A stretch of DNA of 64,000 nucleotides, taken from positions 1 to 64,000 of the forward strand of contig NZ_JARQWW010000002.1 of the NCBI RefSeq assembly GCF_029543125.1, in the 5' to 3' direction. Shown here piece after piece: positions 18,565-23,155 of this stretch (positions within the stretch are counted from its first letter, which is position 1; each line of letters opens with the position of its first letter). The position numbers and the translations under genes are program-made. The notes below the pieces were generated by a model that had not been told where the DNA came from, did not search any database, and worked only from the letters and a program-made list of their open reading frames with translations. The DNA is from Caulobacter segnis (GTDB lineage: Bacteria > Pseudomonadota > Alphaproteobacteria > Caulobacterales > Caulobacteraceae).

Positions 18565-19571
18565 GCGACGGCCTGCAAGGCTTCGCCCAGTTCCTCGACC
18601 ATCTCCGGCGTGGTGGCCCAGGAGCACATGAACCGCACCGAGCCGTCGAGGAAGCGATAGACGAACCAGCCCTTGCCGCGCAGACGCTCCAGGGTCGCCT
18701 CGTCCATCTGGACGAACAGGCCGTTGGCCTCCACCGGATGCATCAGCGGGAACGGCATCAGGCCGGCCAGCTTTTGCGCCATGGCGTTGGCGTGGGCCGC
18801 GCGGTCGGCCCAGGCGCCACTTTCCAGCATGCCGATCCACGGCGCGGCCAGATAGCGGCCCTTGGAGATCAGCTGGCCCGAATGCTTGATCCGCGCCTCC
18901 AGCCGGCGCTCGAAGCTCTTGTCCAGGAACACCACCGCCTCGGTGGGGGTGGAGCCGGCCTTGGTTCCGCCCATGACCAGGATGTCCACGCCCATCTTGA
19001 CCACGGACTTCAGATCGAAGCCGGCGGCCACGGCGTTGGCCAGGCGGGCGCCGTCTAGGTGGACGCCGTAGCCCTTGGCCTTGGCGGCGGCGGTCAAGGC
19101 CGCCAGCGCATCGCCGGAATAGACGGTGCCGTACTCGGTGGCCTGGGTCAGGGACAGGGCCGCCGCCGGCTGACGGTAGGAGACGTCCGCCTCGTCCAGC
19201 GCGGCCTCCAGCGCCGCCAGCTCCATCTTGCCGCTCGCCCCCGGCAGACCGATCAGGCCCGTCCCGTGGGTGAAGAAGCCGGGCGCCCCGGTCTCGTCGG
19301 TGCAGATGTGGGCGTGCTCGTGGGCGATCACCGCCTCATGCGGTTGAGCCAGGCAGCCCAGCGCGAAGGCGTTGGCGGCGGTGCCCGACGGCAGGAACTT
19401 CACCACCGCATCGGCGTCCAGCGCTTCACGGATCAGGTCGGCGGCGCGGGCGCTGACATGGTCGGAGCCATAGCCGGACGCGGCTCCTGAATTGGCGGCG
19501 ACCAGCGCCTCCATCACCTCGGGCATGGCCCCGGCGACGTTGTCGGAGGCGAAGTCGTAACGGGCGGCCAT
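18561..19571 (-). CDS. ltaE: Low-specificity threonine aldolase family protein
   Basis: A 336-residue PLP enzyme of the beta-eliminating lyase fold. The start FASDNVAGAMPEVMEAL matches the family, with GYGSD, a HEHAHICTDETGAPGFFTHGTGL segment, VHLDGARLANAVAAG and the Schiff-base lysine in VMGGTKAGS. It cleaves threonine/allothreonine to glycine and acetaldehyde. It is the first gene of a two-gene unit with the PhnD-like protein. Confidence 0.9.
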   Translation of the reverse strand: MAARYDFASDNVAGAMPEVMEALVAANSGAASGYGSDHVSARAADLIREALDADAVVKFLPSGTAANAFALGCLAQPHEAVIAHEHAHICTDETGAPGFFTHGTGLIGLPGASGKMELAALEAALDEADVSYRQPAAALSLTQATEYGTVYSGDALAALTAAAKAKGYGVHLDGARLANAVAAGFDLKSVVKMGVDILVMGGTKAGSTPTEAVVFLDKSFERRLEARIKHSGQLISKGRYLAAPWIGMLESGAWADRAAHANAMAQKLAGLMPFPLMHPVEANGLFVQMDEATLERLRGKGWFVYRFLDGSVRFMCSWATTPEMVEELGEALQAVA

Positions 19572-19628
19572 GGGCGATCCTTGGAACGGTGTGAGGCGAG
19601 CCTTCTACCGTTCGGACAACCGCTTCGC

Positions 19629-20531
19629 CTAGTGCGCCCCGGCCTCGCCCGGCGCGGCGGACAGGGCGGCCGTCACCCGCTCCAGCTTGTCCGGATTGCG
19701 GGTGATGTAGATGGCGACGATGCGGCCGTCCTCGATCTCGAAGGCCGTGGTCTGCAGCACCCCGCCGCGCTCGCGGCTCACATAGCCGGGCAGGCCGTCG
19801 ATCCACATGGGCCGGACCATCTGCGCGTCCTGTAGAATCTGCTTGCGGAACAGGCCCCGGTAGAGGCGGATCGCCTTCTGCAGGCCGAAAATCGGGTTGA
19901 TGAAGGCCAGGACCTTGCCGCCGCCGTCGGAGCGGATGACCACGCCCTCGGCCAGCAGCCCCTGCAACATATTCAGGTCGCCGCTGCGGGTGGCGTTGAA
20001 GAAGGCCTGGGCGATCCGCGCGCCCTCCTCCTGGGCCACGGGATAACGGGAGCGGGCGTCTTGCACATGGCGGCGGGCGCGGACGGCCAGTTGCCGAACG
20101 GCGGCGGGCTCGCGGTCCAGGGTTCCTGCCACCTCGTCCAGCCCGACGCCGAACACGTCGTGCAGCAGGAAGGCCGCACGCTCCAGGGGCGACAGGCGCT
20201 CCAGCGCCATCATCAGGGTCAGGGTGAGCTCGTCCTCCATGGGTTCTTCCGGCTCGACCGCGATCAGCGGCTCGGGCAGCCAGGCGCCTACATAGGTTTC
20301 GCGCCGCGCCCGCGCGGACTTCATCTGGTCCAGGCACAGGCGGGTGACCGTACGCGACAGGAAGGCGCCGGGGTTCTGGACGCTGGCCATGTCCACCGAC
20401 CGCCAGCGCAGCCAGGCGTCCTGCACCACGTCCTCGGCCTCGCTCATGGAGCCGAGCATGCGGTAGGCGAGGCGCGTCAGCCGGGGCCGATGCGCCTCGA
20501 ACACCGTGACCGCCGGCTCAGGCGGCGACAT
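19629..20531 (-). CDS. ECF41-type sigma factor (SigJ-like)
   Basis: A 300-residue sigma factor, longer than a plain ECF. Region 2 is AYRMLGSMSEAEDVVQDAWLRW, and region 4 is LSPLERAAFLLHDVFGVGLDEVAGTLDREPAAVRQLAVRAR. Both hallmarks of ECF41 are present: WLPEP in the linker (GAWLPEPL) and DGGGK (RSDGGGKVLAF) in the SnoaL-like C-terminal extension, which in this family modulates activity in place of a separate anti-sigma factor. It overlaps the 3' end of the carboxymuconolactone decarboxylase gene by 14 bp, the partner family always linked to ECF41. Confidence 0.93.
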   Translation of the reverse strand: MSPPEPAVTVFEAHRPRLTRLAYRMLGSMSEAEDVVQDAWLRWRSVDMASVQNPGAFLSRTVTRLCLDQMKSARARRETYVGAWLPEPLIAVEPEEPMEDELTLTLMMALERLSPLERAAFLLHDVFGVGLDEVAGTLDREPAAVRQLAVRARRHVQDARSRYPVAQEEGARIAQAFFNATRSGDLNMLQGLLAEGVVIRSDGGGKVLAFINPIFGLQKAIRLYRGLFRKQILQDAQMVRPMWIDGLPGYVSRERGGVLQTTAFEIEDGRIVAIYITRNPDKLERVTAALSAAPGEAGAH

Positions 20532-20982
20532 CGGCGGGGTCCACGGCCGGCAGGGCCCGGAAGCCGATCTGCAGGCGGTTCCAGGCGTTGATCGCGCCGA
20601 TCAGCAGGGTCAGGTGGACCTGCTCGGTCTCGCTGAACACGGCCTTCACCTGCTCATAGTCGGCGTCCGGCGCGTTGGTCTGGGCCACCAGGGTCAGGGC
20701 CTCGGTCCAGGCCAGGGCGGCGCGCTCGCGGGCGGTGTAGAGCGGCGCCTCGCGCCAGGCCGGCAGCAGGTCCAGGCGCACCTGCTTCTCGCCGTGCTTG
20801 CGGGCGTCGGTCGTGTGCATGTTGATGCAGTAGGCGCAGCCGTTGATCTGCGACGCGCGCAGCTTCACGAACTCCATCACGCTGCGCTCCAGGCCGCTGT
20901 TGGCGAAGCTCGCCTCAAGGGCCATCAGCGCCTTGATGCCGTCGGGCGCCAGTTTGAACGGGTTGGTCAGCCGGGGGGTCAT
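20518..20982 (-). CDS. Carboxymuconolactone decarboxylase / AhpD-like protein (ECF41 partner)
   Basis: About 154 residues. The AhpD-like CxxC motif is in NGCAYCINMHTTDARKHGE (Cys-Ala-Tyr-Cys, then His), and the C-terminal region has TLLIGAINAWNRLQIGFR. Proteins like this are peroxidase- or hydroxymuconolactone-decarboxylase-like; the substrate is unknown. The ATG at 20982 has GGAGA upstream; 20994 and 21021 are in-frame alternatives. It is the first gene of the operon, followed by the ECF41 sigma factor, and is preceded by a consensus ECF41 promoter. Confidence 0.9.
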   Translation of the reverse strand: MTPRLTNPFKLAPDGIKALMALEASFANSGLERSVMEFVKLRASQINGCAYCINMHTTDARKHGEKQVRLDLLPAWREAPLYTARERAALAWTEALTLVAQTNAPDADYEQVKAVFSETEQVHLTLLIGAINAWNRLQIGFRALPAVDPADVAA

Positions 20983-21021
20983 TGTCGTCTCCATCCGCGC
21001 CTCATGCGCGTTCGACTTCAA

Positions 21022-21049
21022 GACGAGATGGCCGCCCCGTGATGTGACA
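21022..21049 (-). promoter_or_regulatory. ECF41 promoter (TGTCACA-N17-CGTC)
   Basis: On the minus strand TGTCACA (21049-21043) is followed after 17 bp by CGTC (21025-21022). This matches the published ECF41 target signature and lies about 40 bp before the start of the decarboxylase. It supports autoregulation of the two-gene unit. Confidence 0.75.
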
Positions 21050-21066
21050 TGGCCGCCAGGATTTTT

Positions 21067-22122
21067 TCAGAACCCATAGAGTTTGGCGTACTCGGCGTCC
21101 TTTGTCGCGATCTGGCGGGCGCAGTCGACCATGACCTTGGCCTGCTTCCAGGTGGCGTCGTCCTGCATCTTGCCGTCCAGCATGGCGACGCCGGTTCCGT
21201 CCGGCATGGCCTCCAGGATGCGCTTGGCGAAGGCCACCTCGACAGGGTCGGGCGAGAACACCTTCTTGGCGATGGCGACCTGGCTGGGATGCAGGCTCCA
21301 AGCCCCGGCGCAGCCCATGAGGAAGGCGTTGCGGAACTGCTGCTCGCAGGCCTCCGGATCGTCGATGGCGCCGAACGGCCCGTAGAACGGCTTGATCCCG
21401 TGGGCGGCGCAGGCGTCGATCATCTTGGCGAAGGTGTAGTGCCACAGATCCTGCTGGACGCTGGCGCGCGCACCGCCGTCGGCGTGCGGGTCCTCGACCA
21501 CGCGATAGCCCGGATGGCCGCCGCCGACGCGGGTGGTCTTCATGGCGCGGCTGGCGGCCAGATCAGCCGGACCCAGGCTGATGCCCTGCATGCGCGGGCT
21601 GGCCCCGGCGATGGCCTCCACGTTCATCACGCCTTCCGCCGTCTCCAGGATGGCGTGCAGCAGGATGGGCTTTGTCACCCCGTGCTTGGCCTCCAACGAG
21701 GCCAGCAGTTGATCCATGTAGAAAATGTCCCACGGGCCCTCGACCTTGGGCACCATGATGACGTCGATCTTGGACCCCGCCCGCCCGACGATCTCGCTGA
21801 CCTCGTCCAGGTGCCAGGGGGAGTTCAGGCAGTTGATGCGGGTCCAGAACCCGACCCCCGCCGCCGCGAAGTCCACGTTGCGCGCCAAGTCGATCAGCCC
21901 CGCCCGGGCCGCCGTCTTGGCGTCGGCGGGAATGGCGTCCTCCAGATTGGCGAGGATCACGTCCACCTCGCCCAGCAGGTCCGGAACCTTGGCGCGGACC
22001 TTGTCCAGGTGCGGCGGCACGAAGTGGATCATGCGCTCCACCCGGTTCGGCAGCTCGCTCAGCGGCGCCGGCGCACCGATGGCCAAGGGCTTGAAGAATC
22101 CTCTGGGCGTCTTGCTCGTCAT
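21067..22122 (-). CDS. HpcH/HpaI-family CoA ester lyase (malyl-CoA lyase-like)
   Basis: About 351 residues. CitE/malyl-CoA lyase signatures are [37 protein letters not shown] (metal-binding acidic cluster), [37 protein letters not shown] and the CoA-binding [18 protein letters not shown]. The length and the [22 protein letters not shown] start resemble (3S)-malyl-CoA/beta-methylmalyl-CoA lyases, which give glyoxylate plus acetyl- or propionyl-CoA. The start ATG at 22122 has GGGGGAG upstream. It stands alone; citramalyl-CoA lyase activity is an alternative. Confidence 0.85.
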
Positions 22123-22197
22123 CGTCTCACTCCCCCGCGATCTTTTTATTTCGCAATTGCGAGAAGACTTGCGGCGATGCGGAACGGCGTCAAGCAC

Positions 22198-22242
22198 CAA
22201 CCCTTCTCCTCCCCTGTAGCGAAGCGTACGGGGGAGGATGGA
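22198..22242. repeat. Intergenic palindromic repeat, copy F
   Basis: TTCTCCTCCCCTGTAGCGAAGCGTACGGGGGAGGA forms a CTCCCC/GGGGAG stem directly after xerD. It shares the CTCCTCCCCTGTAGC word with the copy at 33608-33680. Confidence 0.5.
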
Positions 22243-22246
22243 AGCC

Positions 22247-23155
22247 TCACCCCTTTTTCGCCAGCGGGTGCTTTTCCTCGACCACCGCTTTCAGCCGTCC
22301 CTCGGCCACGTGGGTGTAGATCTGGGTCGTGGCGATATCGGCGTGGCCGAGCAGGGTCTGGACCACGCGCAGGTCCGCTCCGCCCTCCAGCAGATGGGTG
22401 GCGAAGGCGTGGCGCAGGACGTGGGGGCTGACCTTCTCGCGGTCGATGCCGGCGTTGACCGCCGCCTCGTCCAGCAACTGGGCCACCCGGCGGGAGGTCA
22501 GGCGGCCGGCGGCGCTGCGCGAGACGAACAGCCACGGGCTGTCCTTCACCCCGGCCGGCAGGAAGTGCGCCCGCACATCCAGATAGGATTTCACCGCCGC
22601 GCGGGCGGCGTCGTTCAGGGGAGCCAGCCGCTCCTTGCCGCCCTTGCCCTTGACGATCAGGTAGGCCGGATCGCGCGTCAGGGCCGCCAGGGGCAGGTTC
22701 AGCAGCTCGGAGATCCGCAGGCCGGAGGCGTAGAGCAGCTCGATCATGCAGGCGAGACGCAGGCCGTGGGCGGCGTCCTTCTCGAAGGCGGCGGCGATCA
22801 GGCCCTCCACCTCCTCGCGGCTCAGCACCTTGGGCAGGGGGCGGCCCTTCTTGGGCGCCTCCACCCGGCGGGAGGGATCGTCGGTCCGCCAGCCTTCGCC
22901 CAGAACAAAGCGGTGGAACTGGCGCAGGGCCGAGCGACGCCGCGACGCCGTGGCCGGCGACAGGCCCCGCGCCCCGAGGTCTGCGAAATAGGCCTCCACA
23001 TCCTCGGCCGAGGCGGAGCCGAAGTCCCGCCCTCGCCCCTTCAGGAAGGCGGCGGCGTCCTCCAGATCCTTGCCATAGGCGGTCAGGGTGTTCTTCGACG
23101 ACGCCCGCTCGACGGCCATCATCTCCAGGAACGCCTCGACCCAGCCGGCGCTCAT
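22247..23155 (-). CDS. xerD: Site-specific tyrosine recombinase XerD
   Basis: A 302-residue protein, normal XerD length. An N-terminal SAM-like DNA-binding domain ([23 protein letters not shown]) precedes the catalytic domain with R147 (SGLRISELL), Lys in [11 protein letters not shown] (~171-174), H245 and R248 ([15 protein letters not shown]), H271 and nucleophile Y280 (TTQIYTHV). With XerC it resolves chromosome dimers at dif. Its ATG overlaps the upstream gene's stop (ATGA). Not a mobile-element integrase: there are no attachment repeats and the neighbours are core genes. Confidence 0.95.

Follow-up and report, generated by a model that had tools for sequence, protein, structure and literature searches.

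The window analysed here, a stretch of 64,000 nt of Caulobacter segnis DNA, carries a predicted ECF41 sigma factor gene preceded by a carboxymuconolactone decarboxylase (CMD) gene and a promoter. The whole unit lies on the minus strand, and its order in the direction of transcription, −35 element, spacer, −10 element, GGAG leader, CMD gene and sigma gene, can be read directly.

21067 to 22125, minus strand: HpcH/HpaI-type lyase gene with uncertain start (Pfam HpcH_HpaI), upstream of and outside the unit
21043 to 21049, minus strand: −35 element TGTCACA, read directly, matching the published ECF41 −35 consensus as given in the available part of PMC3426412
21022 to 21025, minus strand: −10 element CGTC, read directly, 17-nt spacer from the −35 element
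20518 to 20982, minus strand: CMD/AhpD-like gene, 154 aa, with a CxxC motif (NGCAYC), assigned from Pfam CMD, AhpD core and PDB 2gmy
20518 to 20531, minus strand: 14-bp overlap of the CMD and sigma genes, read directly
19629 to 20531, minus strand: ECF41 sigma gene, 300 aa, with sigma2, WLPEP linker, sigma4 and a SnoaL/NTF2-like extension containing DGGGK and NPDKL, assigned from motifs, families and fold

The most likely CMD start is the ATG at 20982, 39 nt past the last base of the −10 element and with a GGAG 6 nt upstream; the stop codon occupies 20520..20518, and the CMD query sequences began one codon upstream of this ATG, at 20985. The 14-bp gene overlap is consistent with one mRNA and may reflect coupled translation. 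At the other end of the unit, the lyase stop codon sits 17 bp ahead of the −35 box, and the interval 19400–22500 yielded no terminator-like site, so that read-through into the CMD and sigma genes is possible. No anti-sigma gene adjoins the sigma gene, the neighbours being the CMD gene, a beta-eliminating lyase-family gene and the HpcH-type lyase.

The promoter that the initial annotation had placed ahead of the CMD gene, TGTCACA-N17-CGTC, is indeed read at 21049..21022 of the minus strand and conforms to the ECF41 target pattern TGTCACA-N16±1-CGTC. Its 17-nt spacer is inside the published 16±1 range, though N16 is commonest. The transcript start proposed at about 21010 would be a reasonable position for this promoter. 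The exact motif with N15–17 occurs once in the 64 kb versus 0.07 expected (about 5e-5 per 100-nt upstream stretch), and a chance origin of the window promoter was rejected on this count. The N17 promoters found in Nitrospirillum and in Azorhizobium oxalatiphilum contain GCCATCTCGTC, as does the window promoter. In addition, GCGGCCAT occurs twice within 21057–21029 of the minus strand, just before the −35 element and inside the spacer, perhaps by chance in GC-rich DNA.

The sigma protein matches Sigma70_r2 and Sigma70_r4_2 above the Pfam cut-offs and has no sigma3, and it also shows a sub-threshold PhyR match. Among the NCBIfam models, SigJ NF007214 is matched with 376 bits (cut-off 271), and TIGR02957 SigX4 scores 302.5 bits, under its cut-off of 323.25. 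Both signatures claimed for the sigma factor are present, WLPEP, the motif named for ECF41 factors in the available text of PMC3426412, at residues 84–88 and DGGGK, which we take to be the signature motif of the ECF41 extension of about 100 aa, at residues 202–206; NPDKL follows at 279–283. In a 32-row ECF41 alignment, W84, L85, P86 and P88, D202, G203, G204 and G205, and N279, P280, K282 and L283 are invariant, and the extension, which begins at about residue 167, carries DGGG and NPxKL invariant in all 32 rows. The proposal that this extension is SnoaL-like is borne out at the level of the predicted alpha/beta fold, which matches SigJ 5xe7, SigG1 and SnoaL/NTF2 folds in Foldseek searches, though Pfam SnoaL finds no match in the protein at E≤0.001. 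The model has a mean pLDDT of 79.8, with the linker (residues 75–105) below 50, and SigJ 5xe7 is the best PDB match of the whole sigma whether it is compared by sequence (E=4.8e-44) or by predicted fold. The partner was likewise correctly named as an AhpD-like CMD gene: its product scores 71 bits against PF02627 (cut-off 23) and 59.5 bits against AhpD core, carries NGCAYC, and matches the solved CMD-family structure PDB 2gmy at E=5e-42. Motifs, families, predicted fold and 80 relatives support the identification of the unit as an ECF41 sigma with an AhpD-like partner and an ECF41-type promoter. That an intact DGGGK region makes the fused regulation functional, as had also been suggested, goes too far; conserved DGGGK indicates a domain that has been kept, not a working loop.

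ECF41 factors are described as having a C-terminal extension, COE neighbours that include CMD, and TGTCACA-16±1-CGTC promoters, and in the part of that study available to us 107 loci have the COE gene upstream of the ECF gene in one direction, 97 of them with the promoter (Wecke et al. 2012, PMC3426412). The COE gene adjoins the sigma gene in the window as in the ECF41 definition, and TGTCACA-N17-CGTC followed by the AhpD-like CMD gene and the sigma gene is a canonical ECF41 operon, ordinary by itself and known in kind. Its counterparts RSP_0606-ecf41Rsp of Rhodobacter sphaeroides and ydfG-ecf41Bli of Bacillus licheniformis share the CMD partner, the TGTCACA −35 element, the fused C-terminal regulatory domain and the lack of an anti-sigma gene, as far as the accessible text of PMC3426412 goes. 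In Sinorhizobium meliloti SMb20029-rpoE9, an ECF41 sigma gene likewise follows a CxxC CMD gene, and the mapped promoter and start correspond to TGTCACA-N16-CGTC (PMC6180224, in part). Mycobacterium tuberculosis SigJ (PDB 5xe7) is alike in its sigma2-sigma4 core and SnoaL-like extension and is distant, with 33% identity to the window sigma in the fold alignment. In tested ECF41 members, removal of the end of the extension raised activity about 20- to 120-fold, and removal of the whole extension abolished it; in B. licheniformis, co-expression of CMD left sigma activity unchanged, so that an anti-sigma role for CMD was rejected (both from the available part of PMC3426412). The autoregulatory loop had been called testable from sequence alone, which overstates the case: gene order and overlap would suggest autoregulation, and read-through from the lyase gene is conceivable.

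Among 80 named relatives of the window sigma, 68 carry an exact TGTCACA-N15–17-CGTC in the orientation of the sigma gene and no more than 1.5 kb ahead of it (55 with N16, 12 with N17 and 1 with N15), and in 43 a CMD gene lies upstream on the same strand. The window sigma is 66–75% identical to proteins of Afipia, Nitrospirillum, Azorhizobium, Methylobacterium and others, and 57–58% identical to the ECF41 factors of C. radicis and C. endophyticus. In a quickly built tree (133 rows), it is placed outside the main Caulobacter clades, within a supported group of 59 rows that also includes a second ECF41 copy of C. radicis; next to it, in a weakly resolved fork, are genome G102 and a Brevundimonas MAG. 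These sequence comparisons point to a separately acquired lineage. The tree also contains an ECF41 unit from a contig filed under Mucilaginibacter (L297, a Bacteroidota MAG) that groups with alphaproteobacteria and is perhaps misbinned. Four genus-mates (L180, L181, L182 and L183) carry a distant ECF41-like sigma gene, 40–43% identical and divergent from a CMD gene; no exact TGTCACA-N15–17-CGTC was found in these four stretches, and their sigmas are possibly an ECF41 subgroup with another promoter.

The initial annotation had called the unit complete and had proposed a genome search for further TGTCACA-N-CGTC sites. The local promoter, CMD gene and sigma gene are all present; the search was productive as well, and it shows that completeness does not extend to the genome, where two more perfect promoters precede members of ECF41-linked gene families. 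In the 4.08-Mb genome (11 contigs) the exact motif with N15–18 occurs six times, the window promoter included, and two of the other sites are promoter-like:

C5:634664: perfect N16 promoter before a second CMD gene (CMD2), 43 nt from the end of the −10 element to the start
C5:555220: perfect N16 promoter before an unannotated gene for a 135-aa membrane protein, 55 nt from the end of the −10 element to the start

CMD2 has 148 aa, contains CxxC and is 43% identical to the window CMD; the genome holds three CMD-like genes at E≤0.001, and the promoter stands before two of them. Three further sites were dismissed as possible targets: C3:280483 (N15) lies across the start of a TetR-type gene, C7:368785 (N17) overlaps frames on both strands with no clear gene start behind, and C8:156203 (N15) is followed only by a 41-aa frame. 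With one mismatch allowed, N16 sites numbered 27 and reversed-pattern sites 16, which is near the background level, and a search for a degenerate regulon was dropped for this reason. The genome has one close ECF41 gene, the next sigma match being 33% identical (E=7.5e-7). Since the exact motif stands before the window operon and before two related remote genes, the switch may run a small scattered gene set, and from the sequence we predict that C5:634664 and C5:555220 are two further ECF41 promoters that depend on the window sigma. By-eye comparison of the membrane-protein promoter with that of S. meliloti SMb20029-rpoE9 showed 13 of 16 spacer letters in common.

Both remote gene families are linked to ECF41 elsewhere. 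With cut-offs of >150 bits for CMD2 and >110 bits for the membrane protein, and in loci pre-chosen for holding ECF41, CMD2 orthologues (76–84% identical to the remote CMD2) were found in 17 of 80 loci, most of them divergent from the sigma gene, and membrane-protein orthologues (60–66% identical) in 15 of 80, from Methylobacterium, Methylopila, Sphingomonas and others. In 14/17 CMD2 and 10/15 membrane-protein orthologues, the start has an exact site no more than 150 bp away; the background in locus ends is 2 sites per 620,000 strand-bases, or 0.0005 per 150 bp. As for the five membrane-protein orthologues without a site, one stands behind CMD, two behind the sigma gene, and the remaining two are farther downstream of a site. 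The arrangement of this genome recurs in Sphingomonas montanisoli, where CMD2 with a perfect site is 225 kb from the CMD-sigma operon. In Caulobacter radicis (L148, G142:C44), a second ECF41 gene, two CMD2 copies and three exact sites are found within about 2.5 kb. No exact site was found before an 85% identical CMD2 homologue in G099 (L149), nor at the four nearest Caulobacter membrane-protein homologues (60–67%), which adjoin CMD.

At E≤1e-10, 36 of 149 Caulobacteraceae genomes contain more distant membrane-protein homologues. Most of the matches (31 of 37) adjoin ECF41, and 28 of these 31 loci have an exact N15–17 site near the start; in G005, G082 and G116 the sigma gene follows the membrane-protein gene almost directly. 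The family, whose members include C5:555220 in this genome and L018:4258–4665 on the minus strand and which occurs beside ECF41 in several alphaproteobacterial groups, has the strongly conserved motifs FNQHFxRDIG and HALFHxWExxxGIC. No NCBIfam match was obtained for the membrane protein and no Pfam match for the copy in this genome, and the 15 orthologues gave weak Pfam matches only (best E 0.008, DUF6010). The Methylopila orthologue yields a confident helical-bundle model (pLDDT 89), and an attempt to identify the protein by fold failed, this model having no PDB match at E≤0.001. In five Caulobacteraceae loci that were examined, the membrane-protein and sigma genes are separated by a gene whose product has about 180 aa and a CGPC or CGSC motif; three copies tested had no Pfam match.

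L163:2088–2633: CGPC/CGSC gene copy
L208:2386–2934: CGPC/CGSC gene copy
L165:1874–2422: CGPC/CGSC gene copy
L200:2523–3065: CGPC/CGSC gene copy
L141:2260–2826: CGPC/CGSC gene copy

Across the family, the exact motif is enriched where ECF41 is present. ECF41 was scored at E≤1e-30 in 54 of 149 genomes, and 49 of the 95 genomes without a match were chosen as the ECF41-negative set. Exact N16 motifs number 74 in the 54 positive genomes (reversed pattern 12) and 25 in the 49 negative ones (reversed pattern 28, of which G124 alone contributes 7). With the split between local and remote set at 3 kb, 42 of the 74 sites are local to ECF41 and are spread over 40 of the 54 genomes, leaving 14 positive genomes, this one included, with no N16 site near the sigma gene. 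To decide whether a site stands before a gene, we relied on reading frames, on codon-position GC and on homology rather than on annotation. On this basis, 10 of the 32 remote sites precede an intact CMD gene, 5 a PEP_mutase gene and 1 a membrane-protein gene (this genome); 16 lie elsewhere, 11 of them inside a frame judged coding. The sites before intact CMD genes are perfect N16 sites from 10 ECF41-positive genomes, this one included, and in G086 and G146 the N16 motif is absent near the sigma gene and present before a remote CMD gene. Of 25 sites in the ECF41-negative genomes 22 were read; none precedes CMD or the membrane protein and one, in G108, precedes a PEP_mutase-like frame. Fisher's test on 16/32 versus 1/22 gives p=3.3e-4, a value that is descriptive only because related genomes are not independent.

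The PEP_mutase-family genes behind exact TGTCACA-N16-CGTC sites (L245, L253, L258, L259 and L280) belong to five ECF41-positive genomes of genus g7; they were recognized by homology in all five, and two also matched Pfam. The corresponding site in G108, which has no detected ECF41, is L295. In G056 (L227), a remote site is conserved with the sites before CMD of G086, G142 and G146, yet only the first dozen codons behind it are CMD-like, and it is counted among the 16 that lie elsewhere.

Counted from the gene side, the family genomes contain 44 CMD homologues. An exact N15–17 site precedes 13 of the 17 within about 3 kb of ECF41. Far from ECF41, the ECF41-positive genomes hold 22 CMD homologues, of which 8 are preceded by an exact site (7 with N16, 1 with N15), far above the locus-end background, and 14 are not; most remote CMD homologues are not predicted targets. 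None of the five CMD homologues in ECF41-negative genomes (G003, G010, G025, G094 and G124) has an exact site, and a comparison of 8/22 with 0/5 does not reach significance (p=0.28). In 30 named genomes from outside the family, there are 60 exact N16 motifs (reversed pattern 12), and 24 of the 30 genomes have a match; part of these 60 sites was read, and many of those read away from ECF41 have no homologue of the query families behind them.

Taken as a whole, we consider it likely that the canonical ECF41 operon is the hub of a dispersed regulon with three promoters, a prediction that departs from the published description of one target. By analogy with tested members, the SnoaL-like extension would keep the sigma at low activity until a signal, probably a small molecule, is bound and relieves it. 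The active sigma would then direct RNA polymerase to its own operon, giving positive feedback, and the same holoenzyme would in trans read the perfect promoters of CMD2 and of the small multi-helix membrane protein. Window CMD, CMD2 and the membrane protein may act together, probably against an oxidant or electrophile; the two CxxC AhpD-like enzymes suggest that the function is probably protective redox chemistry.

Alternatively, control by the sigma may be confined to its own CMD-sigma operon, with the two remote perfect sites being relics or unused. Such an arrangement fits the published generalisation: in the available text of the sources, the ECF41 factors of B. licheniformis and R. sphaeroides (PMC3426412) and of S. 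meliloti (PMC6180224) have a single local target each, and three near-consensus B. licheniformis promoters gave no response (PMC3426412). The remote sites may be remnants of former ECF41 loci, given that both gene families are linked to ECF41 in other genomes, and the 14 of 22 remote CMD homologues without an exact site would agree with this. However, both sites are letter-perfect, with the preferred N16 and short leaders, in a genome whose one-mismatch sites are near background, and remote sites before intact CMD genes contrast between ten ECF41-positive genomes and none of the 22 sites read in negative ones. The present genome differs from the S. meliloti case, as far as that source reports it, in having two further perfect promoters before ECF41-linked families and a window spacer of 17, and from the RSP_0606-ecf41Rsp and ydfG-ecf41Bli systems, which the accessible part of PMC3426412 presents as single-target. 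We regard control of the local operon alone as unlikely. For the three-promoter regulon itself, our confidence is lowered slightly because the G056 site precedes no intact CMD gene and because of the same 14 homologues.

Considerably less probable, in our judgement, is that another ECF sigma reads the remote sites and perhaps the window promoter too, or that the CMD and sigma genes are transcribed mainly by read-through from the lyase gene. The genome does encode six other proteins with weak matches to the window sigma, and the closeness of the lyase stop codon to the −35 box and the missing terminator-like site would allow read-through. Against another sigma, TGTCACA is described as ECF41-specific in the available part of PMC3426412, and the enrichment of the motif tracks ECF41 presence across the family. 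Read-through, for its part, could coexist with control by the sigma and would then supply basal sigma.

There is a precedent for an ECF41 factor that reaches beyond its neighbour: Azospirillum RpoE10 reportedly controls lateral flagella, via TGTCACA or indirectly (cited in the available parts of PMC8999054 and PMC12826043). The literature searched, mostly papers outside subscription, yielded no account of a dispersed regulon under an ECF41 factor in Caulobacteraceae, which does not imply absence from print. What the predicted small dispersed regulon would add to the known ECF41 unit may reach beyond this genome. With somewhat less assurance than for the three promoters, we favour the view that alphaproteobacterial ECF41 factors run dispersed regulons drawn from a recurring kit, consisting of an AhpD-like CMD, the small membrane protein, the CGPC protein and PEP_mutase-family enzymes, many with their own TGTCACA-N16-CGTC. 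Which of these is the neighbour of the sigma gene would vary by lineage while the rest scatters, and in this genome a single ECF41 factor, from a lineage outside the main Caulobacter ECF41 clades, would control the CMD, CMD2 and membrane-protein genes at three separate sites. On this view, at least some “orphan” ECF41 factors would have partners encoded at other loci of their genomes.

The published picture of one enzyme gene per factor offers few clues to the signal that ECF41 senses. A recurring multi-gene kit, if true, would give a function to look for, a candidate membrane partner and targets for “orphan” ECF41 factors, and with three promoters of one sigma in this genome, their co-regulation would be a direct test.
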